Virus record (IMG/VR): IMGVR_UViG_3300028393_000210
Location: 1-33,398 of that record
DNA length: 33,398 nucleotides
Source of the DNA: a virus
Reading direction: 5' to 3' (one strand)
The stretch's first letter is position 1. Each line of letters opens with the position of its first letter. The position numbers were made by a program, and so were the translations under genes. A model generated the notes under the pieces. That model did not search any database. It had not been told where the DNA came from and saw only the letters and a list, made by a program, of their open reading frames with translations. Shown one piece after another: positions 6,705-26,600 of the stretch.

Positions 6705-7322
6705 TTAAACTGACACTAGGCCGGTTAAACTTTGAAGCCTTACTGTATAATCAATTTGTATAAGTCTATTAAGGCTTTTTTGTACAGGGTGGAAAATTAC
6801 GTGTGTTAATAATAACGGATTTCCAGTAGCACTGTAACTTTTTAATCCAAGCTCGTCAAATACAAACGTACTGTTATTATTATTTGTATTATCAAATGCG
6901 CTTTGTCCTGCATCATTTCCATCGCCATAATCTAATAAACAAGTCACAAATATGTCACTATAATTTGTGCCGGTGACGTGTCTAACTTCCATGTAATTTC
7001 TTGTAGGATCTGCATTGCTACTAGAATTTTGATTGACTATTTTATGATATGTTTCATTGTATAAACCAGCATTACTACCTGTACTATTCGGAGTAAAATA
7101 TGTAATAATTCCAGTTGGATCGATTGCGGTTCCGCCGTTACCAAACGACATTTGGCTGATAAATCCGCCATCGTTATTGTTGGATAAACTGTTGGCTAGG
7201 GCTGTACTAATGTTTTCGTAATGAATTGCGTTACGTTTATTAATATAGACTTCCTTACTTTCAGGATCCCATATTTTAATATGTCCTTCAATGTGGATTC
7301 CGGTTAGATCTTTACTCTGCAT
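6705..7322 (-). CDS. Conserved marine-phage structural protein (205 aa)
   Basis: It recalls a family common next to fibre genes in marine T4-like phages. Key motifs are GHIKIWDP (13-20), KRNAIHYENISTALANSL (29-46), MSFGNGGTAIDPTGII (58-73), FDELGL (155-160) and LLTHVIFHPVQKSLNRLIQI (171-190). The ending resembles a compact beta fold. There is no signal peptide, membrane segment or known enzymatic motif. It sits between the peptidase and the collar fibre and has its own late-promoter motif (7343-7350), so it heads the unit that includes the three paralogous fibres. A role as a fibre attachment or baseplate accessory protein is inferred from neighbourhood. Family resemblance is from memory and not verified by search. 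Confidence 0.7.
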   Translation of the reverse strand: MQSKDLTGIHIEGHIKIWDPESKEVYINKRNAIHYENISTALANSLSNNNDGGFISQMSFGNGGTAIDPTGIITYFTPNSTGSNAGLYNETYHKIVNQNSSSNADPTRNYMEVRHVTGTNYSDIFVTCLLDYGDGNDAGQSAFDNTNNNNSTFVFDELGLKSYSATGNPLLLTHVIFHPVQKSLNRLIQIDYTVRLQSLTGLVSV

Positions 7323-7371: not shown

Positions 7372-8958
7372 TTATCGGGCACCTGTTGTTTTCCGAGGAT
7401 AAACTGGGCCTGTAGACCTAAATCCGTAATTTTGTTTAGGGAATGTCGATCCGGTATGGAAGTATTTGTAAATTTGATCTACCTTTGGACTGCCTAACCC
7501 TGTGGCAGCATCCCAGCCTGCGGTTGTAGTATAACCAGTAGTATATCCATTTCTATTATCACCGCTTGTAGTATCAGTGAACATTGAAGAATTACTATAC
7601 CAAATAGACATATCAAACGGTACTCTAGTGCCTAATAGTGCAGTTAATCTTGCCCAAGTGCCTGCTAAAAACGGTGCGCTGGCGCTGGTACCGCCCCAGG
7701 TCTGCAAGGAGTTGTTTACATAAAATGTCCAGCCGGTAGACGGATTTGCAGGAGCACTGATATCAGGAACACCTCGGCGAGGTAAAGCAGTTGGAGAACC
7801 TGTTGAGCTGGCTGTTTTAGTAGTCGAGGTTAAACCAGTTTGCCAACTGGGCAAGGGCACTGAACTGCTAATACCGCCGCCACTTCCGCTCCATGCAACT
7901 TCGCTACTGATGTTATTACTGCCATCTAGTACTGTAGTCGTGCCACCGGCTGATACCATATATTGACTGCAACAAGTTTGCGCCATACTTAAATTGTTTG
8001 CACCGCTATCGCCTGAACTAACAAAAACTGTAATGCCTTTGGTCACGCAGGCTTGCAATGCTGAATCAAATACTGTGCCATCGCCAATTCCCCAGCTTAT
8101 ATCAAGTACGCAAGGATTGTTTACAGTATCGTTTGCACACGCATTGATATTGTCAATGATGTTCTGTGTTCCACCATTTGGTGCTGTATAGTATGCTATT
8201 TTTGCTCGAGGCGCGGCGCCTCCTGAACAATAAATGTCCAGCATACTTTCTGCATCGCTGGTTGAACTTACTGTTGCTCCATTTACATTTATATTTGTAA
8301 TTGTTGGAGCAGTTAGCCCGATACGAGAAAAGCTATTTGTAACATCCGTGGCGTTATATCCTGTAACATAACCACTATAAGTTAATTCAAAAATTCCAAT
8401 ACACACACCATATCCGTCACCGGTCGGTGATTTATAAGCTGTACTCATTTGTATGGGTGTTACTGCTATTGCAGGATTAGCAATCGTAGGATCAGCGCCA
8501 GGATAATCTAGAGGATCATATTTTGTTGCATGTTTTACAGCAATAAAACTTTCGTCAAATCCAGGAACACTTTCAATTATACCTATCATTGCTTGAGGAA
8601 TAGTCGGAGCAACATTTGGCATCATGTAAGTTCTACCACCATCCGTCACATCTTGTAATGTAATGTTAAATGCACTATTAAAAGCACCCACTGACCCTGT
8701 AACTTTGACTACACTTTGTCCGTGATGCGATTCATGAATAGAAAAATTATTTGCACGGGCCCAGTCTATAGCTTTTTGCAAATTTTCATCTGTCGCACCA
8801 AATTGATAAACAAACGAACTGTGACCTAAAATTGGTTCTTGGCCTTCAAGCACAGCATCTGCATATTCTTTTAAAGTCATTCCATTTTCGTGGGTATCTC
8901 TTACAAGATACAGACTAATCATTATCTGGTCGTTGACATTTTTATTGACTGTGGTCAT
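7372..8958 (-). CDS. Sedolisin (family S53) serine-carboxyl peptidase with pro-domain, 528 aa
   Basis: A complete sedolisin/kumamolisin-type endopeptidase. Residues 1 to about 150 form the activation pro-domain (LKEYADAVLEGQ, VKVTGSVGAFNSAFN, PQAMIGIIESVPGF). The catalytic domain spans about 165-500. Expected residues are present: Glu237 and Asp241 in SDAESMLDIYC (the E-x3-D pair), Asp317 in VSSGDSGA (oxyanion Asp) and nucleophile Ser425 in WGGTSASAPFLAG. Also present are RGVPDISAPANPSTGW (395-410) and a Ca-site-like C-terminus with Asp462 (FTDTTSGDN) and GWDAATGLGSP. There are seven cysteines and no signal peptide or membrane segment. A Pro/Arg/Lys-containing tail (501-528) follows the catalytic fold. 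Start and fibre stop are one base apart (TAA-T-ATG), and the ribosome site is weak, implying coupling. Known family members are acid-active and self-maturing. Its place in a virion is inferred. Confidence 0.93.
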   Translation of the reverse strand: MTTVNKNVNDQIMISLYLVRDTHENGMTLKEYADAVLEGQEPILGHSSFVYQFGATDENLQKAIDWARANNFSIHESHHGQSVVKVTGSVGAFNSAFNITLQDVTDGGRTYMMPNVAPTIPQAMIGIIESVPGFDESFIAVKHATKYDPLDYPGADPTIANPAIAVTPIQMSTAYKSPTGDGYGVCIGIFELTYSGYVTGYNATDVTNSFSRIGLTAPTITNINVNGATVSSTSDAESMLDIYCSGGAAPRAKIAYYTAPNGGTQNIIDNINACANDTVNNPCVLDISWGIGDGTVFDSALQACVTKGITVFVSSGDSGANNLSMAQTCCSQYMVSAGGTTTVLDGSNNISSEVAWSGSGGGISSSVPLPSWQTGLTSTTKTASSTGSPTALPRRGVPDISAPANPSTGWTFYVNNSLQTWGGTSASAPFLAGTWARLTALLGTRVPFDMSIWYSNSSMFTDTTSGDNRNGYTTGYTTTAGWDAATGLGSPKVDQIYKYFHTGSTFPKQNYGFRSTGPVYPRKTTGAR

Positions 8959-8959
8959 A

Positions 8960-11623
8960 TTATGCTTCTAGTTTTAAGTACGTGATTGTAACTGTTATTG
9001 CAGATGCACCGGCACTGTTATTATTATAAATCTTCAAATACATGTTTGTCCCCGGAGTGCCGTCTGCATTGAATCCCATTACAGCTGGAGTAAAATAAGT
9101 TGTATTTGATACTGCACCAGTAGTAATTATCTCTGCTATTACACCGCTTCCCGGTGTGGGATCAGTAGTTATTGCTCGTGAACTATCTGCACTTTGCGCA
9201 CTTGAGCTTGTATAAATTGTAATCCAGGCGCCTGCACTTGCTTGTATACTGTACAATGCATAACCTTTGGCTGCTACTACCGTTGCCGTGGCGCTTGTTT
9301 GATATGCAATGCTAGCTGTTGTCGTTGAAACTGTTGTTCGACTAGACAAGCCTGCACCGCTAGATGTTAATTGTCCGCTACCATTAATAGATATAGTCGT
9401 GCCATCTATTTTAACAGCACCAAGTTGTGTTGTAGATGCTGCCGAAACACTGATAACTCCACTGGTAATTGTTATTGTGCTGTTGTCAACTTTGACGCCG
9501 CCCAATTGTGTGTCGCTTGCAGTGGCTAAACCAATAGTGCCTGTACTATTTGTAATGCCGCTGGTTGCCACAGCTGGAATTTTTACACCTCCTGTAACAC
9601 TGGTGGTAGCCGTTGGTAAACTATACTGGGCGGCTGGCGTGAAAAAGAATGTATTACCGCTGATACTCAGTGCACCGCCACCGCTGGCAGAATTAGTAGT
9701 TACTGTATAAGTTGGTACTACAGGAATAACTGGAGGCGTGAATGAAAATACACTTCCATTTAAACTTAACGCTCCGTTTCCGCTTGGTGTGTTTGACGAC
9801 ACTGTGTATGTTGGCACTAAAGCCGGAGTGAACGAAAATGTGTTTCCACTTAAACTTAAACTTCCGTTACCGCTAGCTGTATTAGATGTTACTGTATAAG
9901 TTGGTACTGTAGGTATTAACGGAGGAGTATATGTGAATGTATAACCGCTTAATCCTAATGCACCAGAACCACTTGCACTATTTGTTTGTACATTATAAGT
10001 TGGTATGCTTGCTGGAGTAAACAAGAATGTAGTTCCATTTAAACTTAAACTACCGCCGCCATTAGCTGTTGGACTTGTTGACACACTATAACTTGGAACG
10101 CTGGCCGGTGTAAAAGTAAATACTCCACCACTGTAACTTAAAGAGCCACCACCACTAGCAGTATTGGTAAGCACACTTAAACTAGTAGATTGTAAAGGTG
10201 TATACCCTAATGCTGTAGTAACTTGATTACCAGTAATTCCTGTTAAGTATGTTGATAGATTTGGCGGTGTAAACGAAAACACTCCATTCAAATAACTTAA
10301 TGCACCAGTTCCGCTGGCTGCATTTGTTGTTATGCTTAAACTATTGATATTAAGATATGTTGATAAATTTGGAGGGGTATATGTGAACACACCGCTAGCA
10401 TAACTGATAGCTCCAGATCCGTTGGCGGCCGCATTTGCTCCAACACTTAGACTACTCAACTGTATTGGAGTAAATCCTAACGCTGAAGTTATTTGACCCG
10501 TTGTTAATGTTCCGCTATAAATTCCAGTTATAGTACCAGCAGTTCCACTTACATTACCAGTTACGTTACCAGTTACGTTACCAGTTACGTTACCAGTTAA
10601 ATTTCCAGTGAATGTGCTGGCAACAATAGGAATATTACTTGTAAAACTAGTATTAGCGTGAGTATATAAAAAAGTAGGATTTGGCGTTGGGCCGTACACT
10701 TGTAATCCGCTACCATCACTTAATGCACTACTTGTACTGCCGTTACTAACAATAATTGTTTTATTAGCTACACTTAAAGTGCTAGTACTGGTACTTGTTG
10801 TTGTACCAGTTACTGTTAGGTTTCCAGTAATAACAGTATTTCCAGTAACGTTCAAACCTGATAGTGTTCCAACGGTTTGCAAACTAGAATTAATAACTGT
10901 TGTAGGTAGTGTTGTTAAAGAACTAGCAATAGTAGTAGCGGGAACTGTGATATTTGCAGTTCCATCAAAACTAACACCATTAATAGTACGAGCAGTTTGC
11001 AAAGCTGTTGCTGTTCCAGCATTGCCTGTTATTGTGGTAGTTGCGGCTGGAGGTACAAATGTAAATAAACCTGTAGAACTATTATAAGATATGCCGCCAA
11101 CGCCAGATGGTGTAGTATTAATAACACTTAAACTAGTTAAGGAAATCAAAGACGATACATTTGGTGGAGTGTAGGTAAAAACACTTCCGCTTATACTTAA
11201 ACTACCTGTGCCAGCAGGACTAGCCGTATTAATAGTATATGTAGGCACAACTGGTGGTGTGTAAGTGAATTGTCCGCCGGAATAACTCAACGCTCCGTTA
11301 CCGCTGGCAATACTTGTTCTAACTGATAAACTTTCAGCAGTTAAATAGATTCCTAAATTTGGAGTGTTTATTAATTTTGAATAGTTTAAACTAGTAATCC
11401 AAGCAGGATCTGAATAGGCAGCCGTAGTGACTACTCCGTTAGTTGCTTGGAATGGTTGCCAGCTAACAAGGTTACCGTCTGTTGTTAAATATTTTCCGCT
11501 ATTTCCAATCAGCGATGGCAAGGATAGCGAATATAGTTCAGTAAAATTACTGTTGATTTTAGCGGCGCCAGATTTTAAACTATCTGCGGCGCCTGCTTTT
11601 GTATTAATTATTAGTTGCGACAT
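8960..11623 (-). CDS. Repeat-rich tail fibre (887 aa)
   Basis: A long beta-rich fibre just downstream of the giant gene. The N-terminus MSQLIINTKAGAADSLKSGA then AKINSNFTELYSL carries the KINxNFxELY motif frequent at the base of marine phage fibres. About 11 copies of a 20-22-residue unit (consensus SGxGxLSxSGxxFTFTPP) lie between residues 105 and 663, in two blocks separated by a segment (193-396) holding a GN(L/V)TGNVTGN run (340-358). Residues 665-760 hold QLGGVKVD and QLGAVKID repeats, and 761-887 form a different, probably globular tip (GYALYSIQASAGAWITIYT, then VTITYLKLEA). A strong AAAGGA site precedes the ATG at 11623. The repeats probably form a trimeric shaft, and the tip is the best candidate for receptor contact. 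No enzymatic motif is visible. Confidence 0.82.
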   Translation of the reverse strand: MSQLIINTKAGAADSLKSGAAKINSNFTELYSLSLPSLIGNSGKYLTTDGNLVSWQPFQATNGVVTTAAYSDPAWITSLNYSKLINTPNLGIYLTAESLSVRTSIASGNGALSYSGGQFTYTPPVVPTYTINTASPAGTGSLSISGSVFTYTPPNVSSLISLTSLSVINTTPSGVGGISYNSSTGLFTFVPPAATTTITGNAGTATALQTARTINGVSFDGTANITVPATTIASSLTTLPTTVINSSLQTVGTLSGLNVTGNTVITGNLTVTGTTTSTSTSTLSVANKTIIVSNGSTSSALSDGSGLQVYGPTPNPTFLYTHANTSFTSNIPIVASTFTGNLTGNVTGNVTGNVTGNVSGTAGTITGIYSGTLTTGQITSALGFTPIQLSSLSVGANAAANGSGAISYASGVFTYTPPNLSTYLNINSLSITTNAASGTGALSYLNGVFSFTPPNLSTYLTGITGNQVTTALGYTPLQSTSLSVLTNTASGGGSLSYSGGVFTFTPASVPSYSVSTSPTANGGGSLSLNGTTFLFTPASIPTYNVQTNSASGSGALGLSGYTFTYTPPLIPTVPTYTVTSNTASGNGSLSLSGNTFSFTPALVPTYTVSSNTPSGNGALSLNGSVFSFTPPVIPVVPTYTVTTNSASGGGALSISGNTFFFTPAAQYSLPTATTSVTGGVKIPAVATSGITNSTGTIGLATASDTQLGGVKVDNSTITITSGVISVSAASTTQLGAVKIDGTTISINGSGQLTSSGAGLSSRTTVSTTTASIAYQTSATATVVAAKGYALYSIQASAGAWITIYTSSSAQSADSSRAITTDPTPGSGVIAEIITTGAVSNTTYFTPAVMGFNADGTPGTNMYLKIYNNNSAGASAITVTITYLKLEA
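9635..11311 (-). repeat. Array of about 11 degenerate fibre-shaft repeats (protein level)
   Basis: Within the 887-residue fibre, units with consensus SGxGxLSxSGxxFTFTPP occur near residues 105, 133, 170, 397, 434, 486, 516, 547, 580, 611 and 643. Copies 6-11 are close to regularly spaced, 30-33 residues apart, joined by linkers such as VPTYTVxTN. DNA similarity between copies is visible (repeated plus-strand words such as cttaaacttaaacttcc), so recombination could change copy number. Confidence 0.8.
10554..10601 (-). repeat. 12-base tandem repeat, three exact copies plus one degenerate
   Basis: On the plus strand the unit ttaccagttacg occurs exactly at 10554-10565, 10566-10577 and 10578-10589, followed by ttaccagttaaa at 10590-10601. 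It is in frame with the fibre gene and encodes the TGNVTGNVTGNV run. As an exact in-frame repeat it could change length by slippage without breaking the frame. Confidence 0.9.
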
Positions 11624-11641: not shown

Positions 11642-14600
11642 TTACCACGTATCTGTACTATCATCGAATCCTGTACTACTATTATCAAAAGTTCCCGTAA
11701 ATGTTGTACTTGTTGTCAATACAACTTTATCATGATACCAAATTCCAGGTGTTGCTTTTAAGAAATTAGCAATAGCATTATCATCATATTGAATATTTAA
11801 CGAACTATCCCATCTTGTGCCTTTTCGTCTTACTACAGTAATCTGAGTGCCAGCAGGTATTAAATTTGTTAATCTTAAACTTGGACTAACACCGTCTACT
11901 GCAAATTCTGCATCCAGCTTAACATCTCCGGCAGGGCTATATGGAGATATTGTTTCATTATGTACTTTATAAGGTTGTTTTTTCAATCTTAAATTTCCAA
12001 CAAAGAATTGCCAATTGGCTTTATCATTTAGGAAGTTTGTTGAGCTAGTGTGCGCCGAAATGCATCTATAGGTATAACTTGCCACTTTAACGATTACACC
12101 AACTGTATAACTTGTTTTTTCAATCCACTCTATTGCGTCATTATACCCTGCAATGAAAACTTCAAGCTCGTCGCATTGTTCAAATCCCACAGGAACTTTG
12201 GTATCGTATAGTTCCCAATAAACTTTGTTTGTGGGAAGAATTATATTCTTCTTATCAAACACATAGGTTTTTATATTTACATAATACAAATTGTTATAAA
12301 TTACCACATCGTTGATTGTGTATCCATTTGCCCCATTATGGTTGTCTTTGAGTGTGAATCCCAATTTTGTAAACCACTGTTTGATACCAGATTTTGTCGG
12401 TACAAACGGTAAAGGCACAATATTAGTACCAGTGCTAATCACTGTTGTTACTAATGAAGATTCCGAATACGGCAGTGTTTCACTTGGCCCAATATCTTGC
12501 ACTGGAGTTCCAATAGGATGGATTCTTGGAGTGCCAGTTCCGTGTGTGCCTCGTCGTAACTGGCTTAATGTATTACCTTCAATTTGATAAAACTCAATAC
12601 GTTCTCCGTAAATTTCAATCACACCCGGTTTGTTTAGTGTAGTGTTTGGTAAATCAAAATTGCTAGCATCAATTAACTGAATAGCAATATCGTTATAACG
12701 TAAATCTGTTGCTAATTTTGTTTGTTTATTTTTACTTAATCTCTTAAAATGTGTTCTGTTAAGCATATCTTTAAATTGCATATACGAAATTCCAGGAACT
12801 AGAACGTTATTGTTAAACGTCATCAAAGAGTACACATCATTACGAGCTGGTGTAATTTCTAGTATTATAGATTTTTTATTGTCTGACAACTTATAGTCAA
12901 CGGACGGAGTTAACAACACATTATTCTTCATTACCCATACATAAGCATCACTAAGTACTGTTCTATCAACCGGTAGAATTCCTGCTCCAAGACCAGTATA
13001 GGTAAAATACGCTACTGTATCTTGTGTATAAGATATGTTAGTGGTTATATTAAATGCGGTTCTTTCAATATCTAAAATATCGTGATTATAAAAACTCATT
13101 ACTTCAATAGTGTTTGAAGGAGTGTAGACAGTATTAAATAAAATTTGCTGAGTATCTGGCAAATATGTATAGCCGTTAGTTTGTATAATACTAATAGCTA
13201 ACGTCTTACCTTTGTATATATTATAATTTTGTTTAGTTATATTTACAGTTATGCCGCCTAAGTCGATAACATAGTCTGTTCCTAAATTTAATTTTTTTCC
13301 AGATACATATACTAGAATATTACTGATTATGATACTGTAAGGAAGTGCTCTTGCCTTATCAATAGTGTAGCTAAGATTATTATTTTCAATAGTAAAATAC
13401 TGATTAGTTGGATTTGGTAAAATCGTATTATCTACTCGTACAATTATATTAGATTCAGCCGGCAAAGTATTTCCCACTGGGTATGATAAATTATATGTAT
13501 TTTTAACACCGTCGGCAACAATTGTTTCAGTCTTGGCTATACTAAATGTTTGTTGAGTTCCACTAACAATTACATAATTGATTACAGAATCAACTAATGG
13601 AGCAAGTCCAAATCTAATTCCTGTACGGTTTGCCGAATCATATGTTGAATCTGTTTTGAATAATTCAACTGATGCCGCAACTCCGTTTACGTATACAAGA
13701 CCTGTTTCGTATGTTAGCCAAGGTGCTTTGGTTAAAAATTCAGTAGTTGATCCATCACCCACAAAAGAATCAATGTCTATTATATTAGAACCGTTAAATC
13801 CAAAACTGAATATACTAATAATATTTCCAGCATTTGGAGCAAAAGTAAAATTAACTAATTTATTCTTATAATCAACAACGTAATCTGTAGTATATGAACT
13901 AATTACATTATTATTTTTAACAATAATTGCTCTTTCATTATTAAATGTCTGTGTAATTGCAAATGATTTAGTCTTACCGTCGGCAAAATACTTGTCTACT
14001 TTAATATTTGCACTTCCAGAATTAGGTTGGTCATACACTTTAATAGCTAGTGCATCAACTATTTGACCGGGAACTACTTCTTCTGGGGCAGGACTAGTAG
14101 TTGGGCTAATTAGATCATCACCGTCCACGATAATCTCATCCGGCGATATACCCGTTGCTGTACTATATACCATATTGCCGCCAGATAACGCAGTGTCATA
14201 GTCTTGCTCAAGAGGTTTAATTGATCCGTCACTGGTGCTTTGTCTTATAATAAATTGATCACCGTCGTACACATCAAATGTGTCAGGTATGACAAAAGTA
14301 TTGGTATTATTATCACCTACTGGAGAAACCATTACAGCTGACTGATTTGTTTGATACGGATTATCAGGGTGCGCTGGATCAAAATCAACTCCATAGTATG
14401 GATCGTCTAATCTTATAGAATCTAATACACCTGTTATTATAATTCTAGTTCCAATTGCTGCCGGTGATGGCAATATAGCATTGTAATTATAAAAAACTAC
14501 ACTGATCTTACGTGAGAAAGTTATAGTAGTATTGTAAGGAACAATCCTGTAAATTATTTGATTCAGTTTTACTATTTTATTAACTGTGTCCACTCCAACC

Positions 14601-17600
14601 ACAACAGTATCATTGCCAAAACAGGATGAAACTGTTGTGGATACTAGATCCCCTACCAATACACCGTCAGCATTGTCAACGTATAAATTAAAAGAACCGG
14701 GAATATTAAAAGTAAATGATAACACTCCAACTGGGCGCACATTTGGTGGAGAAGTTAGCAACACAGTACTGTTGACTGAATTAACACTAATCACTTTTTG
14801 CAATGGCACAAGAGTTTTTGGATCGACCACAAACCCTGTGCCAAACACTGACATTCCTGGACGTATTCCAACGGTGCTGGTAACTCTTATTGTGGTAGAA
14901 GCAATATAAGTAGGTGGAGCAACGTAAGAAGTTTGTATAGTTACCGAGACTGCATCATATTCTGCGCTTGTTTCCACAAAAGTATCCCGTAAAGAGAAAG
15001 GATAGTTTAAATTTACTCCATCAGAAACGCCCACATCTACATTTTTTTGTATGTAGTAGACATTGAGTTGTGTGCCAGTTGAAGGAGTATACGGCAATGT
15101 AAACGAATGAGTATTGGCTCTCACTGTTACAATGTAATCATTAAATGTTGGATCAGCACTGTCCCACTTGTCGCTGTAATAAGGCAATGTGCCCCAGCCA
15201 GTTGCTACATCAAAACTTAGTCCATCTATAATGACTCCACCATAATCTATCCCCGTCATCAGCTGAGCAAGATCCGATCCAACTGTGTTCTTACTTGATT
15301 GATAGTAATATTGTATTCTGTCGGCAGCATTTAACAAAGATTCGTCTTTATTGTAATTAACAATGACGACTGAACCAGTCGCTGGTGCTGTCAAGAATGT
15401 TATTAAACCAGAATATTGTGTGGTGTTATTCTTTTTGGAGGTTATTATTGTTAACTTGTATAAATCTCGTAGCACTACTACACCGTCGACAGTTACAGAA
15501 CTATTTCCAATTTTAATGTCTGGTGCCCATTTTAATTGGAATTGTACAATGCCAGATCGTCCGGCAAATGTTTGAGTGACTGAAAGTTGTGTTACATAAT
15601 AAGAATAAGTAGTTCTATCAAATTTAATTTTAATCAAGTTAGATCTCACTACGCCTTTTCCAATAACTGCGGCGGCCGTGGCCTGCGTTCCGCCTACCGA
15701 CAAACCACCCGATATTGTAATTGTTGGAGCCGATAAGTAGCCGGCTCCCGGAGTTAGTAATGTAATTCTGTTAACTATTCCATTTGCAAAAAATGCTCTT
15801 GCTGTAGCTCCGCTACCAGAATCGCTAGTGATTGATACTACTGGTTCTGAAATATACCCAGAGCCTCCGTCGACTATATTAATACTAGTTATAGTAAATC
15901 CTACATTTTGTAGCCAATTTTTCCAAGGATAAACTTGTATGTTAGCATCGTCTACTATCATACTGCCATTCTTAACATAAGGATTAATTACTGTATTTGA
16001 ATTATCTTCAAAAATTGGCGGTAAATCAAAGTCTGATATTAAGGTGTTTTCTTGATCTATAGCAGTATGAGAACTAATATACTCTCTAATTGTTGTTCTG
16101 TAAGGAACAACTTCTGAAATGTAGTCTTGGAAATTACTTAAATTATCAGGACGATATGTCACTGGTTGGTCTAATAATCCAACATTATGCGTTGATTTAA
16201 TAAAACTTGTTTTAAAAATCCAATCAAGATACAACTGTTCGCTCAGTGCATACCTTATTGTAGTAAAAAATAAATTTAAATAATCTTGTTTTAAATTCCC
16301 AATTAGAATATCATCTTTTAAAGTTTCTAATATAATACGTAATTCAATATTTGGGCTATTATCATATACAACATTATCGTATATTGATCCGTCATATCCT
16401 AGTGGTGTATTAATACTTTGATATAAAGAAGATTTCAATTGTATCGTACCCTCTTGTAACCCTACAACACGATACGATTGTGTCCAATCTGAAGATTTTG
16501 AGTTAGCATATTTTTCTAGTAAACTCCAGCCACCAGCATTTGTGTTTCTAATTTTAACAATTTGTGTTAATTCTGTAGTTATTGTGTTTAATCCGTAATA
16601 GTTGTCCACAGAATAATCAATAGGAGAAAATTTATTAAAACCCGGAGCATACCAATCAGCATATTCCCAGAAATTTCTTACATCATAGCTTTGTGTTTGT
16701 ATTCTAGACCAGATTTTTGTAGAAGGTTCATATGAATAGATGCTCCAAAATCCTTCTGCTTCACTATCACTTTCAATTAATACAGAAAAATTTCTTATAG
16801 ATGCAGTGGTATTAACAGTATAACCTTCGCCTGAATTTATAATAGTAACACCTGTAATTTGTCCTGCGGCATTAATTACTGATTGAACTTTTGCGCCTAT
16901 TCCAGTTCCCACTATAGTAATGTAAGGAGCAAACAAATAGCCTCGTCCTGCATTAATTATTGGAATATCAATAATTTTTCCGTTTGAAATAGTTGGTTCG
17001 CCTAATATTGGTTTACTAAATGCTCCTGTGTTAATTAAAGGAATACTAACTTCTGTTGTTTTAACTAAGTCGTAAAGTCCTGTATTCTTACTAGGCTGTT
17101 TATCGTAAGATTTTAAACGTGAAATATTTCTAGTTTTTACTATTTGATTAAGAGCTAATGTTGAATTTACACGGTCTGCTAATTCTTTAAGTGCTTCAAA
17201 TCGGTTTACAAACATGCTTTGTCTTGGTCTGTTTTGAATACCGTATTTTAATTTTGGAGGCAGGGCAGGATCTGGGACTAGTCTTCCGAATAAATCATTC
17301 CCGCATAAACTATCGGCCCATTTTTGTTCTATTATTGTTGGCAATATAGTGTTGGCATCATTACTAATTAATTTATACTGACTATGAATATTCTGGTCAA
17401 GTTTATCTATAGTCCAATACTCTACAGACAATACCACGTTTACATCAATTAGATCATTTGCAACGTTTACTAAGCTAAAACTGTTTGCGCCAGTTAACGC
17501 CAAATAAGAATAGTTATATCCTCTTGGATTTGAAATAAGCAATGAAACATCCAACGCTGACAAATATCTACCAGAAACATTAGGTATTATTTTTTTATTT

Positions 17601-20600
17601 TTGACCCAAAAATAATAGGTATATTTGTTGGTTTGTGCAATGGTATCAAACTTAGTTACCTTACTATAAACTGCATCTCCGTATAAACTAGTTCCACTGA
17701 TATTCGCGGCAAGTCCAGCTGTAGTGTCTGCTCGTTTATCCCACACCGATGGTAATATTGTAGATTCTACCCATTCGTAAATATCAATGCTGGCGCCGGT
17801 TGCTAGTGTATTCCAGTTAGTATTTCTGTATACAACATCGTTATCATAAGAATCAATAAATTTAGCTGTAGATAAATTCCACCATAGCATGCCTACTTGA
17901 GATTTAGTCCAAGATTGTTGGCTATCTTGGACTACAGTATACACACCAGTAGACTCTGAATATATTGCAGGATCATAGAATGTTTTGAATTTTATTTCTT
18001 CTTCGGCAGCGCCGGCAATTTTTCCCTGCGATACATCGATAACATCTAAGTATTTGATTAAAGTTCCAGTTGCTTTATTGTATAAAAACGCCTTTTTAAT
18101 TTTCTTTGGATCTGGTTTTTCTATCTCGTAGTGTGCTACATTCCAATTTAACGCATTTAATTTTTTATAGTAGTCGTAAATTTTTCCTGATTTAAATATG
18201 GAATCTAGACTAAATGGTGCTCCTACTAAAATATGATTTGCACCCACAGCAAATCCTAGCCCGAAGCCGTCAAATTCTTCATTAGTAGTTTCTAAAGTGT
18301 CGCTATAAACCCATTTTGTCAAGTAACGGTCATAGATATCAATTCTTCCACTGTTTGTATGTGTTGCTGTAAACACTGTAGATCGTTTATCAAAGGTAGT
18401 TAATTTTGCATCAAATTTAGTATTTTGACTAGTATCTTCGTCTTGGCTATAAATTACTAGTGTTTGTTCCCCGTTCATGAATCCTAAATTAGTTCCGAAA
18501 TATCCAGAAGATTTTGATGCATGGTTGGTTAGAACTTGATAAGGTTCAAATATTTCAGACTCAGTATTAAATTTAAAAATACTAACACTTCCTTGATTTA
18601 TTTTAGAAACACTAGTTGTAATATCTCCAATAGCTAGATAATTTCCACTAGAACTTAAATCCAAACCTACACCAAAGAAATAATCAGCACCCATAATGAC
18701 AAAATATTCTGGAGAAGTAGTTGCAGAGTTAGGACGATTATAGATATAAACAGTGCCATATGCACCTTCTGAAATGCCGGACACTACTAATTTACTGTTA
18801 TCTAGACTAACACGTAATTTATTTCCGTAGCTATTTGTAGGTTGAACAACAGCATCAAATAGGACAGCACCGCCACCAAAGCCGCCCGGAGCCCGGCGAT
18901 TATAAGGAGTGTTATCGGCTGTGTCGGCAGTAGTTGCCACGGTGTAAGTTAACTCTGTAGTGCTACAGCTAGTTACCGTAAATGTTCCGTTAAACGTATT
19001 GTAAGGAGTTCCTGAAACAGTTATCTGACTGCCAACTGTATACAAGGGCGAAGTATAATCAAACTCAGTTCCTATAGCAAATTTTACTGTGGCTGTTGTT
19101 CCGTTTCGAATAAACGATTGAGGGAAATTTGTAGTGCCTATTGGGCCGCGATGGCCAGACAAAGTAAAATCTAAATGCCAATAGGTGTTAGAAAAATTAA
19201 GTTCTCCTGAGGGTGTGCTGGTTGGGGCAACACTGAGCTGTAATCGTGTTGAGTCTATAACTGAAACTACATATTGATTAGTAAATCCTGTGCCGGTCAC
19301 CGCCATGTTCGGAAGGATACCTATCGTGGATGTTACTACAACCGTTGTGCCCGACGAACCAACAGGGTTATATGCCGACGTTGCAAATATAACTTGATCG
19401 TAAGCAAATTTTCTCACTATGCCTTGTTTGATATATGGGGCATAAAAATGTTGGTAGACAGATGTATAATCTAATGTTTTATATCCTGGAGCGGATACCC
19501 ATAACACATTGTCAGCAAAAACAATACTCGATCCAAATTGTTCATCAGCAGTGAGATTAGCACTTACAAAACCGTTAGGTGTAAATGTAGTTGTGTCTCT
19601 AGATGTTGGGCTAACAATGTGATCTACCAAAGTAAAAATATTGTTTCCATCTTTTTGATATAAAGAAACTACACCTTCGTTAGCAAGATAAGACGGTGTT
19701 CCATTAACATCTAAAGTAAGATACGGTATTTTTTTCCACTTAGTAAGATCAGGCATTTGTGTGGTAGCATTATACCCGCCGTAATGCAAGCTCAGTGACT
19801 CATAAAATTCAGCAACCGAACTAGAATTTGTAAAAGAGACAACATCCTTTACCTGATAATATCTTACTACTGAAAGTTCACCTTTGTATTTTGTTGGAAT
19901 ATTGCCAGCCAGCGGTGAACCTACTGCTAGCCATTTTGCATCATCACTGATTGCCAACACTGTTGATAAATTATTGGGTGTATTAGTTCCTACTAATTCA
20001 ACTGGCAGGGATATTGTTTGGCGCTCAACCCAAGAACTTGCTTGCCCGGCCTTATCCCATATACGAATTTCGCCAGTACTCATTGCGGTTACTGCTATAT
20101 TTCCGTCTTTGTTAATTATTAAATTTTTTCCAAAATTTAAATTATCAGCTGGAAACGTGTTAGCTATCTCAGTTTTATTATAGACTAGCGAGTACTCTAA
20201 CGTAGCCCATTTTCCAAAGCCATTATCGTCTACCCAAACTTTGTCGCCAGTAGACGGTTGCGCGGTAATAATATTGTCTAAATCATCAAGTTTTGCTACA
20301 CGCTGACTAACAAACCCATAAATTACCAACTGTCCTGCTTGGGTAAACGGTGTTGGGAAACCAGAAATCTTAGCGTCTAGTGTAAAAGAGTTTAATTCTA
20401 CAGATGATACTTGATAAAATCCTGTTAGTATGTCTACTTGACTTATGCCTATATAATCACCTACCGATAGATTTATTAAATTTCTTGTAGTTAATGTTAA
20501 AATAGAATTTGCATAAGAAACATTCGTTATTGAAATTTGTAAATCTGTAAATTTATAAACATTCCAAGAGCTTGCATCAAACGCAACATGCACATAACAG

Positions 20601-23600
20601 TTGTTATCAAAAGTTGTTATATTGTATTTTGCGCCAGTTTCAGGATCTATTCCTGTTATGTCTCCTAAAGTTTTAAGACTTTTAAAAACTTCTGATTTTC
20701 TTACATGGCCCGAATTATTTAAAAACTTTTGATAATTTTTATTTAAAGGCCACGGTGATGAATTATAACCTGCTGGTTTTAAATATATGTCATTAGGAGT
20801 TTGTCTAATAATAAAATCTTTAACAACATTATATTCAACTGCATTTACTAGCTCAAAGCCTTGAGGATTATTAGTAAACGTTGTTCGATCTAACGTAAAT
20901 TCAATATTTTCAAATGCGTTATTTGCTCCGTACTGACCAACACGAATTGCCCACTCTTCATAAAATGTTAGACTTTCTTTATTGTCGGCGCTGAGTACGT
21001 CAAACAATTTATTAAGTACATTTTGAGTACCTTTTTCACGAATCATTCCTTGATAGAATTTGTATTCGCTAACATCATCTTGAATAATATTATCTAAGTA
21101 TTGTCGTTTTTGATATCCAATAAGGTGTTGTGCCACTCGTTGTTGGCCGCTATCAAAGTTTTCACTATCGAGACTATAGAAATCTGTAAACTGTCCAGCT
21201 TTATATGTCCAGTTTGGTAATAATTGTGTCGATGGTTTTTCGTTTAATTTGATCCAATCATTGTCAACAAATTTAGCAGATCCTGCTAAAAATTTACTAG
21301 CGGTATAATAAAATTCTTTGTGTTTAACAATGTCGCCTAGATCATAATCAGTCCAAGTTTGCCACTCTGTTATTTTTGCTAAATCTAAAATAAATCCTGG
21401 AATATCAAAACCGCCATACCAGTCAGTGCTAACATAGCCTGAAACTTTGATGCGATCTTGTTTATAGCCAGTAGGCGGGTTATACAATGTATCATTGAAC
21501 ATTGTATTATTGTTTAATAGCACCACATGTTCGTGCTGTATTAGATAAAACGTTGCGCCGTATATACCGTCACCTGTCCTAGGACTATAACTTACTGCGT
21601 TATCAGATCTATAAGAGTTTATAAAAATTGCTTCGAGTGGCGTGCCATCTACTTTATAAATTTCGTATCCATTAAATTGATTACGAATGTCATCGACTAC
21701 ACTCAGCGTAGTGTTAAAAATTATTTTATCGGCGGCTGGGCTTAAACTTAATACAGAATTACCTTGTGTATTTAAACCGTCAAGTTTTGCAAAGCCGGCA
21801 ATTTGAAAAACAATGTTAGGTAGTATATTTTGAATAGCTTTATAATATTCTCCATTGTATCTAACAATGTCATTGTATGCAAATCCTTTACTAGGAACCC
21901 AGTCGTCCCATTTATCCTGACCAGAACTCCAGTTTTGTGTGGTCCAAAATAAAAATTCTTTGGCACTTGTTTCCCAATTGGTAACAATTTGTAAATTAGC
22001 ATTAAAGTCATCAAAGATGAATCCTTGATCTTTTAAATATTCGCCGTAGCCTAATAAAAAATCTACTACTTCTTGTATGGTTTCAAATTGTGTTCCATAA
22101 GGAACAGTTATCTTAGTTGATCGGTCCCATGTTTTTCTAAAGACAGCAGATTTTCCGCCAATGATTGGCAAACTTCCTAATGATGCAAAATACTGAGTCT
22201 GTATCGTATCCGTAGACACATGCGATGTTTTAACTCTGTAGTATTGATTAACGTATCGAACAATCTTGCCTGCAACATAGTTTTCGTTTGGAGTCCAAAC
22301 TGTATATGCTTCGGATATTCCGCCGATAGTTACCGTTGTCCCAGATTGTAAATATGGGTAGTACACAAAATAAGGTTGGGTAGTAGTATACCCCCGTACT
22401 TCAAATCCGTTAGCAAGTTTAGTTATTACTACACCGCTGTAACAAATCTTTTTAATAGGACTGGATTTATTTAAAATAACAGTATAGTCTTCCTGCGGCA
22501 CAAATACGCTATTTGTACTAAGCGGTGTTTTACTGTCTAATATTAAATTAAATTTTTGTTTGCTAGTAAATCCGCCAATTCGATGACTTAAATTAGTCTG
22601 AATATTAGTTAAATCGTATTTGTATGCAGTATATGATTTAAGGTTATCACTTAAAATATAATTTACAATATAATTTATAATACCAGAAGTTTGTACTCTA
22701 ACACTATTAGAAGCAATGCTTGGTAATATCACATCGCTAGGTTTAATTACTAACCCAGTAGGTGAATAAATTATTTGATTAGATATATTTTTAACAACTC
22801 TGGATCTATCTAACAGTACAGAAAAAGCATGGGCTGGAAACAACAACATGTTAGCTAATAATACACTAAACGGATAATGACTACTTCTTCTCCATGCAGA
22901 TTCAACTGGGCCAATATCTCCAAATTTAAAATTATTTTCTATAGAGGTAGTTAAAGCTCCGATAGCAAGGCCTGCGGCTGCCGGGCTAATTAAATTGCCA
23001 GATTCATCTACTGGAATGTGATTTAATAAAAATGATTTAATATGTTTAGGATTTATGACCGGCGGAGAAGTGCCATCGCCTTTAATTAATCCTTTAGAAA
23101 TATCTGACCACATTACTAAATTGTCGCTGGTATAAGGGCTTGGTCCGTATGCTGTAGTCCACCACTCTGGTTCTAAAGTAAACCCTAGCATTTCCCAAGG
23201 ACATAAATTAGGACGATCAGTATTATAAAAATATCTAAATATTCCTCTCCAATATCCGGGTATGTCTGTACCAGTAGGCGATGCTGTGCCTATATAATTA
23301 TATGTAAAAGGATTTGCAGGACTGAACGATGTATTTTTTGTGTAATCTTGATCTATCAAAGACATCCATTTATAAAAACTAGGAGCTATTACTTGATTAT
23401 ATTCGGCTAACGAATAATCAGTTTTTCTAGTATAACTTGGAATAATATCATCTATATCAAATAAATCAGCATCATAACTTATTTTTATATTATTAAAAAT
23501 TCGTTTTTCCAGTTCAAGAATAATATTATCTCGATAATCATTGTATGCAAGAATCTGACTGCCGTCGTGACCTTGTATCATCGTACGTGGCGTTATTAAT

Positions 23601-26600
23601 GTTGTATCTAAATAAATCTTTGGAGCAAATTTTGGAAAAATTCCTAATTTGGTAGGAGTTTCAGGTATAAAGCATCCGTCTGTGCTGTCGTATTCGTATA
23701 TAGACACGGAATCGCCGTTGCTTAATGAATATGTTATAGTCACAAAACCTTGCAAATTAAATGTGTAATCTTGTCCGTAAATTAATTGCACATCGTTTAC
23801 ATATACACCTACTGCCTTTTCAGATAGCGTGTCTAAATTAAAAATATTATTAAGTGGATAATTTTTTATTCTGTAATCAATAACTTCAATTGTTGTGCTT
23901 ACGCTACTACCGTAAGGAGACATATCACTAAAATAATATGGCTGAGAATTAATCTTGTCAGAGTTGATAATTTTTAAAATCTCGTCAACTTGTTTGCGAG
24001 GAATATTATTATTACTAATAGTTTCAGCAACAGACACAAATAATTTTTTAAATTTGATATAATCGTCTCTGCTTTGTTCAATTGATTTAATTGCATTATT
24101 TGCTTGTGACGTAATATGATACAAATTCAAACTTGCGGGAGCACTATGTTGCACAAATTTTGTACCGTATTGTGTTATATTGCCTAAATCCCTGACGTTA
24201 ACGTAATCGGGATCAAAACTTTGATTTGAAACTGTATTTTCAGCAACAGATGACAACACCTTCAAAGGTATGTTGCTTACTATAGAACTAAAATGATCAA
24301 TAACTTCGCCTAGAGTAAAATTTTCTATGGCATCGTTTAACGGATTATTTTGTAAATTAATAGGAATTTCATAATGACCGTTAGAATTAATTGGTTTATT
24401 TGAATATGTTTTAATTGTTAAAACATCCGTTAATCCAATAGAAGTTTTTAATAATACTTGCTTATATTGTCCGGCGTCAATAATAGAATAAAAATTTCTA
24501 TTTAAAAATATACCGTTGATAAAAACTTTTACTTCTAAATCATCCAAGTTGTCAGTGTCATCAAAAACATCTATATTGAAATTATTAGTAATATTAGAAT
24601 TTTTGTAAATTCTTATTCCAGCTTGAACCGCGGTATTACTACATTTTTGCCAGCCGTTAACATACTCTGTATTACCAGAGTATGTTTTATAACTTAAAAA
24701 TCCTGTAGAAATATTTTTATTAATAACTGTTGTTACATCTTTGTATATAAATGAATCTAATATTAAATTGAAATTAAAAACAATGTCGCCAATATTTGCA
24801 ATATTTTTATAAGTTAATGGAAATTTTAAATAAGGATCAACTGTACCAGTTGAAGAAATTTTATAAGAAAAAATCTTTGTTCCTGCAAATGTAGATCCTT
24901 CATAAACAGTTAAATCACTAAAACTTTTTCCGTTACTATCTACAACGTCAAATAACGGCGCTTGATTTATTGCAGTTTTTGTTTGAGTTTTAATCCAAGT
25001 CGTGCCGTTATACCAATACATTAAGCCTTGATTAGTCGTACCAGCTCGCACTAACACAACTTGATTTAATTGGGGTTCTGCTATTTTTACTAAATGAAGT
25101 TGACGACTACCAGAGTTTAGGTGTTTTACATCAACAAATTCAACTTGATAGATATTATTTTTTACAAATTTGTCAGTGTCCGCTGTAAACAATATTTTCT
25201 GGCCTTGACTTAATGCTATGCTGTCAACATTATATCCCTTACTACCTTCTATAATTGAAAATGCATCTGTTGTAAAGTTATCTATTAAATCAATGTCGGC
25301 TACGGCTGATGTGCCAAAATTAAATAATTTTAAATTAGCCTGAAATTCTATAATAGGACGAATTGCTCGTTGCAGTTGATCAGTATCAGGATAATTCCCG
25401 TTAAAATGTGCGCTGGCAGCTATTACATCTTTATGAAACCAACGATTGTATCGACTCCACGGATTATGATCCGTGCTAGCACGATTAATTGTAATATAAT
25501 CTTTTAATTGTGCAAAGGCGCTTGTATCACTAAATGCCGTGCTGTCAAAAGGAGTAGCATCAAATAGTATAGTTTGTTCTACTGTATAAACGCTACTGAC
25601 TTCTAAAACTTGTTTGTTTATCAATACAATTGATGAGCCAACACCTTCGACGTAAAACTCTCCAGAAGCATACTTAGCAGGTGACACATTTCCAGCAAAT
25701 GTTACTTTCATGCCGTTACTTAATGCGGTTCCATTACTAAGTGTATATGTAGCTTTTCCTAAAATTTCCGATTCAACATCAATATAACTATCTTGATCAA
25801 TAGATAAAATTTGAAATGCGCCACCTAACGTTAATTCTCTATCGCTTTGATAGTACAAAATATTAGGAGCATCTGTAGGAACTTTAAAAATTATAGTGCC
25901 CGAATCAACAGATTGCTGACTAACTCCAGTATTATACTTGTCTAAAGATTGCAACGATCTTGCTAATCTAATACTAATAGGATTGTTTGGAGTGTTAATA
26001 TTAAATGTATAAGTCTGCCCCCTATACAGTTTAATCACTGGATTGGGTGCAAGGCCATCGGGAGTAAAGACTAACTGATTATTAGAGCCTTCAACTTGCA
26101 AATCAATATTGAATGTACTAATTGCAGTTGCTTGCTGTCCGTAAACCCTGATAGTTTCTGGGCCGTACGGCAACCAATAATAATTTTGGAAATTAACAAA
26201 TTTATCCCAATCAATATGCGGATCCCAACTGTAGAATTCTTCTTTGTTAATTCTCGCGTGATTGGATGTGTTTGCGCCTAGGACTGATAACTGATTTATG
26301 TAATCAATATAGTCTTTAAAAAATAAATTATTTCCTAATGTATCGTTAACAGTGATCCCAGGTTCTAATTGATAATTTTGTCTGTCTGTAGTAGCCGCGT
26401 TGAGAAAAATATCAGTACCGACCGTAGCTTTAGAATCCTGTCTTCCTATAAATCCATTAATTTTTTTAACAACGCCAGGCTGTATTAACTGATCTACAGT
26501 TGCTTGTAAAAATCTTTTATTAGGATCTGTTTTATAAAAATTAGGTAAAAGTTCAACCGACAGCGGTTTTTTATCTCCAAAAGGATTAGTAATATCAGCC

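Follow-up and report, generated by a model that had tools for sequence, protein, structure and literature searches.

Why a tailed phage should carry a sedolisin-type (S53) peptidase gene directly behind a tail-fibre gene was examined for IMG/VR virus record IMGVR_UViG_3300028393_000210 (the whole stretch analysed, 33,398 nt, is referred to as the window). A sequence-only reading had described a complete S53 enzyme and argued for a role in the particle or its assembly. It had overlooked that the gene lies on the minus strand, that it belongs to a two-gene module, that the slot is filled by either S53 or S8 peptidases, and that a C-terminal tail unites the two.

A complete kumamolisin-type peptidase

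The gene occupies 7372..8958 on the minus strand (start codon ATG at 8956-8958, stop codon at 7372-7374) and was identified by Pfam, PDB comparison and modelling as encoding a kumamolisin/sedolisin-type serine-carboxyl peptidase of 528 aa. Plus-strand frame 1 across 7372-8958 is riddled with stops. On inspection of the 528-aa protein by eye, no signal peptide was seen. Pfam matched the pro-domain (Pro-kuma_activ, PF09286, 4.3e-11; residues 26-135, 8554..8883, minus strand) and, at clan level, Peptidase_S8 (PF00082, 1.1e-11). PDB sequence searches retrieved kumamolisin 1t1e at 8.9e-50 over residues 44-492, followed by sedolisin 6m9c (3.4e-10) and TPP1 3edy (2.9e-7). The protein had zero matches in PHROG at E<=1e-3, and none of 5 proteins compared with NCBIfam scored above a curated cut-off.

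The catalytic domain (residues 164-502; 7453..8469, minus strand) was delimited by PDB alignment, conservation and model. Glu237, Asp241, Asp317 and Ser425, the catalytic residues proposed from the letters alone, aligned with what we take to be Glu78, Asp82, Asp164 and Ser278 of kumamolisin. The superposition that had been called for was performed with an AlphaFold model of intermediate confidence (pLDDT 69 on average; low-confidence stretch at residues 132-164, after the pro-domain). Using VIA-align, pro-kumamolisin 1t1e was matched with Z 39.1 over 428 residues at rmsd 13.2, a value that places the pro-domain differently in the model, and mature kumamolisin-As 1zvj with Z 37.3 over 309 residues at rmsd 2.3. 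At this model quality (pLDDT 69), Z was 36-39 for kumamolisins, 33-34 for sedolisin and about 25 and less for subtilisins. With triad, oxyanion Asp, fold and pro-domain all present, the protein is a complete kumamolisin-type S53 peptidase, as had been claimed. Membership of S8 (subtilisin) was ruled out by Glu237/Asp241/Ser425 in place of the Asp-His-Ser triad. Residues 503-528 (7375..7452, minus strand) lie outside the kumamolisin match and contain R514...Y520-P521-R522, the proposed docking tag.

Scanning IMG/VR with the window protein yielded 31 loci with 21 distinct proteins, all open (one, L027, with its start cut off). E237, D241, D317, S425, D462 and D483 were invariant in 21/21, and the two last residues, Asp462 and Asp483, would supply the C-terminal Ca2+ site predicted earlier. 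dN/dS was 0.05-0.30 in 8 close pairs, which indicates that the enzyme is under purifying selection. A chance ORF or pseudogene was excluded by the 21 open frames and by dN/dS well below 1. A further scan with an alignment of S53 relatives (A1) gave 78 loci, the initial loci included. Glu, Asp, Asp and Ser were kept in 46 of the 47 further loci, the exception (L106) being without Glu and the first Asp. Many distant relatives (about 408 aa) lack the pro-domain, and a sister group is without PF09286. Seven relatives are embedded in longer ORFs of 649-1430 aa, in 5 of which Pfam detected Ig-like, cadherin-like or glycine-rich domains (in one of the 5 just below the cut-off). In one ORF of 1362 aa (L094:1787-5872), an S8 domain (about 139-504) is joined to an S53 domain (739-1088) by a stretch that is weakly cadherin-like.

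In a midpoint-rooted tree of 148 S53 domains, a phage-only clade of 58 members (support 0.998) comprised 8 other viral sequences and all 50 S53 proteins linked to the fibre domain described below; 10 other viral sequences were placed outside. It held none of 80 cellular S53 domains, these being the best 80 of 494 genome-contig relatives obtained with a wider alignment (A5). The genome-contig scan with A1 returned zero S53 relatives among 44 pattern matches. That the contig was mis-binned and the gene belongs to a host was therefore rejected, the A1 scan being without relatives and the best 80 of the 494 A5 relatives all falling outside the phage clade. tblastn against 50,697 GenBank phage records gave zero matches with the window protein (E<=1e-3) and with a relative devoid of the pro-domain (E<=0.01), so that all S53 evidence comes from IMG/VR contigs.

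A two-gene module of fibre domain and protease

Upstream of the peptidase gene lies a tail-fibre gene of 887 aa (8960..11623, minus strand), matched by phrog_15343 (1.2e-34, unknown function) and by phrog_1833 (tail fiber, 6e-6). Its stop (8960-8962) is followed by a single base (8959..8959, minus strand) and then the peptidase ATG. Its C-terminal domain (CTD; last 130 aa, about 125 aa conserved; 8963..9352, minus strand) was modelled as a beta-sandwich with pLDDT 92.6 and probably forms the fibre tip. Foldseek returned nothing from PDB at E<=1e-3, and the best matches (capsid jelly rolls, HFTV1 turret) reached TM 0.3-0.5, which is insufficient to assign a family; PDB sequence searches with the CTD gave zero matches at E<=1. 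The next gene of the window-type backbone, outside the module, encodes a 205-aa protein (phrog_11259, p11259; 6705..7322, minus strand). Elsewhere in the window, a lone ORF of 4986 aa (11642-26602, minus strand) has a gp6-like baseplate gene on one side and fibre genes on the other, and its relatives travel with the module in the window-type backbone. The gp6-like protein was nearest to those of jumbo myophages such as Phosso and Atu_ph07 (36-37%). As regards the host, no psbA-type gene was found in 9 contigs, a negative of limited weight because all of them are fragments.

The claim that the gene is locked one base behind a fibre stop held throughout. In every IMG/VR locus that includes upstream sequence (30 of 30, all close relatives), the S53 gene starts 1 nt past the stop of a CTD-ending fibre gene. 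The pairing spans about four gene backgrounds: the window-like one (giant protein, p11259, collar protein), that of L003/L006/L015/L021/L026, that of L017/L018 and that of L023/L024/L025/L029/L031. The slot of the window-like backbone holds S53 either with the pro-domain or without it (L072-L079), and in L019 p11259 is 94% identical to that of the window as against 67% for the S53 catalytic domain; the protease thus seems to be swapped while the backbone changes less. L004/L005 have an additional fibre-like gene (11661-13421) that separates the S53 gene from p11259. S53 distances correlated weakly with CTD distances (Mantel r 0.33, p 0.02, 16 loci; for comparison, S53 vs p11259 0.20 and CTD vs collar protein 0.31), so that tight co-evolution of the two gains little support.

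For CTD-picked loci, IMG/VR was scanned with S53-linked CTDs (A2) and with CTDs linked mostly to S8 or to the NTGW proteins described below (A4); A2 gave 338 relatives, and A4 at least 564, these being among the first 600 matches. The best 80 loci were kept per scan, a few contigs being common to both. A serine protease followed directly behind 150 of 161 CTD-ending ORFs (51 S53, 99 S8), a proportion that is not to be read as a population frequency because the kept loci are those most similar to CTDs known to be protease-linked. Behind the remaining 11 were 10 unclassified proteins and 1 NTGW protein. Of 122 distinct proteins downstream of the CTD, a number of them truncated where the contig ends, 116 were proteases. 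When all sets were combined, S53-picked loci included, 79 distinct downstream proteins were obtained, with Pfam matches to PF00082 in 63 and PF09286 in 32. Sorting by motif left 25 of the 79 as 'other', and sorting by HMM, which was used instead, left 5.

S53 and S8 subtilases belong to one fold clan and differ in their triads. The spacing of S8 genes behind the CTD gene was variable, mostly -4 to 6. Of 75 complete S8 proteins, 73 kept the catalytic Asp and all 75 kept His, Asn and Ser; E/D/D/S were kept in 50/50 CTD-linked S53 proteins. From this, activity appears to be selected. The putative Ca-site region of the latter retained Asp462 in 48/50 and Asp483 in 49/50.

In GenBank, CTD matches were found in 45 phage records, every one named Synechococcus phage, cyanophage or marine virus. 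For 14 of these regions, with 16 CTD-ending ORFs, the next gene encoded S8 in 8 cases, an NTGW-type protein in 6 and another protein in 2. The NTGW family ('NTGW...PYY[LIM]PDDF', about 600-930 aa; L197:4349-6319, L200:4326-6152, L202:4348-6678, L203:4308-7097) occurs behind CTD genes of marine cyanophages. It is a non-protease filling the cargo slot of S-SCSM1, S-BM3 and ACG-2014i, and the one member submitted to Pfam had zero matches. The two-gene module of fibre CTD and protease accordingly exists in several gene backgrounds and is widespread in tailed phages. It is apparently undescribed: neither a phage sedolisin nor such a module was found described in the portions of the open-licence literature available. 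Two candidates were discarded. The 'sedolisin' of PMC3339403 is subtilisin-like, takes its name from its cluster and is encoded among phage-type genes at a bacterial locus; in PMC9004378, 'sheath subtilisin' is a figure-legend label.

A C-terminal tail of proteins encoded behind the fibre domain

S53 and S8 proteins behind CTD genes have a common tail, R-x(3-9)-[YFW]PR. Among the 79 proteins directly behind a CTD it was present in the last 40 aa of 60 and anywhere in 69. By class, it occurred anywhere in 50/50 S53 (48 C-terminal), 19/21 S8 (12 C-terminal), 0/3 NTGW and 0/5 other proteins. As a comparison set, 720 other complete ORFs of at least 80 aa contained 11 with the tail. Three of these (L023, L060, L132) are cargo, with a CTD gene that the contig end truncates, 6 are small proteins at least one gene further on in CTD regions, and the last 2, on the minus strand, look spurious. 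The small tail-bearing proteins are S-SCSM1_233, two of S-BM3, ACG-2014i_167, one of AG-345-F15 and P-SS2 gp090, the last lying three genes past the CTD gene. Where NTGW fills the slot, the small gene after it carries the tail.

S53 proteins without a CTD gene had the tail in 0/21 (two of them truncated), as against 50/50 with one (Fisher 1.8e-18, with proteins treated as independent, which they are not). Cellular S53 proteins had it in 0/80 within the last 45 aa and in 2/80 anywhere. Complete S8 proteins carried it in 47/58, 13/15 and 7/8 of three sets (67/81 in total), so that some S8 proteins lack the pattern or have a variant; by eye, the tails of L114 and L192 are a longer-spaced variant. 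Some tails are internal, with more domains downstream (L110, L113, L138). In one of these (L113:4386-7310, ACG-2014h), the S8 protein extends past the tail; by eye, this part resembles an esterase-type domain followed by a cupredoxin-like terminus, and Pfam found the S8 domain alone.

Several S53 genes without CTD and without the YPR tail (L080:1-1812, L085:1605-5251, also L083 and L096) adjoin other fibre-like genes, 2-3 nt behind them (L080, L083, L096) or overlapping (L085). In L080 and L085 the fibre-like gene product ends in ...GDIWYQTF and the S53 protein similarly in ...WTK...WxQT[FY]. Judging from these endings, the two may possibly represent a second fibre-end/protease pair, which hints at more than one docking code.

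Proposed role and known counterparts

We propose an exchangeable module with the fibre and its CTD tip as first half and the S53 gene as second. Encoded just behind the fibre and without an evident secretion signal, the protease would assemble on the fibre tip via its R...[YF]PR tail and ride on the particle, where the pro-domain, if present, would be removed or displaced. During adsorption it would cut a host-surface protein, uncovering or processing a receptor, and would thus be to protein what the depolymerases of phage spikes are to polysaccharide. To this reading as a whole we assign a probability of about 0.6. Of the role suggested by the sequence-only reading, the part that concerns the particle stands as the best interpretation; the location of the protease on the virion, its docking, its activation and its substrate are what we infer. 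The same reading was to be given up if phage homologues were known in number and had some other, established role; homologues proved numerous, but none with an established role was found in the searches made.

Published virion data bear on this in part. S-SCSM1 virions yielded 45 proteins by mass spectrometry according to the available text (PMC9602691), and GenBank labels the CTD fibre (231) and the NTGW slot protein (232) of this phage as virion proteins, labels that presumably derive from those data. An S8-bearing protein of 1411 aa, S-SCSM1_228, is likewise labelled '(virion protein)' and matches CTD-linked S8 at 3e-25. S-SCSM1_232 is a non-protease, and S-SCSM1_228 does not lie behind a CTD gene within the stretch read. 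The latter (L204:3077-7312) has an S8 domain and, by eye, lectin-type domains, and its record name, 'baseplate wedge subunit', may be wrong. For P-SS2, the excerpted table of structural proteins gives gp087 (CTD) 11 and gp090 (tail-bearing) 4, apparently in a peptide column (PMC2784084). For S-CREM1, 14 virion proteins are stated in the accessible part of the report (PMC9964418). Within these portions of the data on S-SCSM1, P-SS2 and S-CREM1, none of the proteins confirmed in virions was a CTD-linked protease. In the available text on the S-CREM2 virion proteome the prohead protease is the sole peptidase named (PMC10665884), and in that on P-HM1/P-HM2 an S8 peptidase and syntenic peptidase genes appear as genome content (Sullivan 2010, PMC3037559).

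Among other explanations, the protease may act in assembly as a maturation factor, either trimming the fibre or serving as an assembly factor of the Tfa/gp38 kind, without necessarily remaining in the virion. The linkage is indeed to the C-terminal end of the fibre in all 30 loci, and the slot directly behind a fibre gene is the place of known fibre assembly factors. However, S53, S8 and the non-protease NTGW share this slot, a poor fit to specific trimming, which is less likely with different catalytic families and at times no protease at all; the slot protein of S-SCSM1 is, moreover, labelled a virion protein. We regard maturation as unlikely. Release at lysis, with the enzyme acting on medium or debris and the fibre operon serving just for late expression, is more improbable still. 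A complete zymogen with its own pro-domain resembles secreted sedolisins, but late expression leaves unexplained both the 1-nt linkage to one fibre domain and a tail almost confined to CTD neighbourhoods. The least probable explanation is an adhesin on a subtilase scaffold with incidental catalysis, since catalytic residues free to drift are instead intact in S53 and nearly all S8 proteins, even though NTGW shows that a non-protease can fill the slot in S-SCSM1, S-BM3 and ACG-2014i.

Beyond docking of the protease on the fibre tip, a broader idea is tentative and stands at somewhat less than even odds: CTD and tail may act as a general socket and plug by which interchangeable cargo is mounted on one fibre-tip domain in several kinds of tailed phages. 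The cargo would be S53, S8 or an NTGW-type protein with its own small tail-bearing protein, and the enzyme could be swapped while the fibre stays unchanged. Most known enzymes of phage fibres and spikes cut polysaccharides. If real, a protease module that is widespread at fibre tips would mean that many phages attack surface protein at adsorption, and would explain the 'orphan' subtilases of cyanophage genomes; it also offers a testable docking tag between fibre and enzyme.

Compared with known systems, the window protein shares with kumamolisin and sedolisin (S53; 1t1e, 1gt9) the fold, pro-domain, Glu-Asp-Ser triad, oxyanion Asp and the Asp of the Ca site, and differs in a clade without cellular member among the 80 tested, in the added R...YPR tail and in its fibre-locked gene. 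Subtilisin-like proteases of cyanophages S-H9-1, S-CREM1 and S-H38, and hypothetical proteins of S-RSM4 and S-CAM4, occupy the same slot behind a CTD fibre and have a similar tail; the proteases, annotated one by one, differ in S8 catalysis (Asp-His-Ser). PSSM2_297 of P-SSM2 (PF00082, T4-GC 292) resembles the window gene in being an S8 gene flanked by cyanophage tail-fibre genes, whereas its record is without CTD match and a YPR tail was not evident in the translation. gp38 of T-even phages and Tfa are encoded behind the fibre gene, tied to the fibre C-terminal end and exchanged as a module, and are not proteases; the window gene is likened to them by position alone (downstream of the fibre and CTD-linked, as in the 30 loci and the 150 of 161 CTD ORFs). 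Tailspike polysaccharide depolymerases are enzymes on the adsorption apparatus that clear the host surface. By analogy, the module would have the same role, with proteolytic activity and with the enzyme forming a subunit of its own, whereas the depolymerase is itself the spike.
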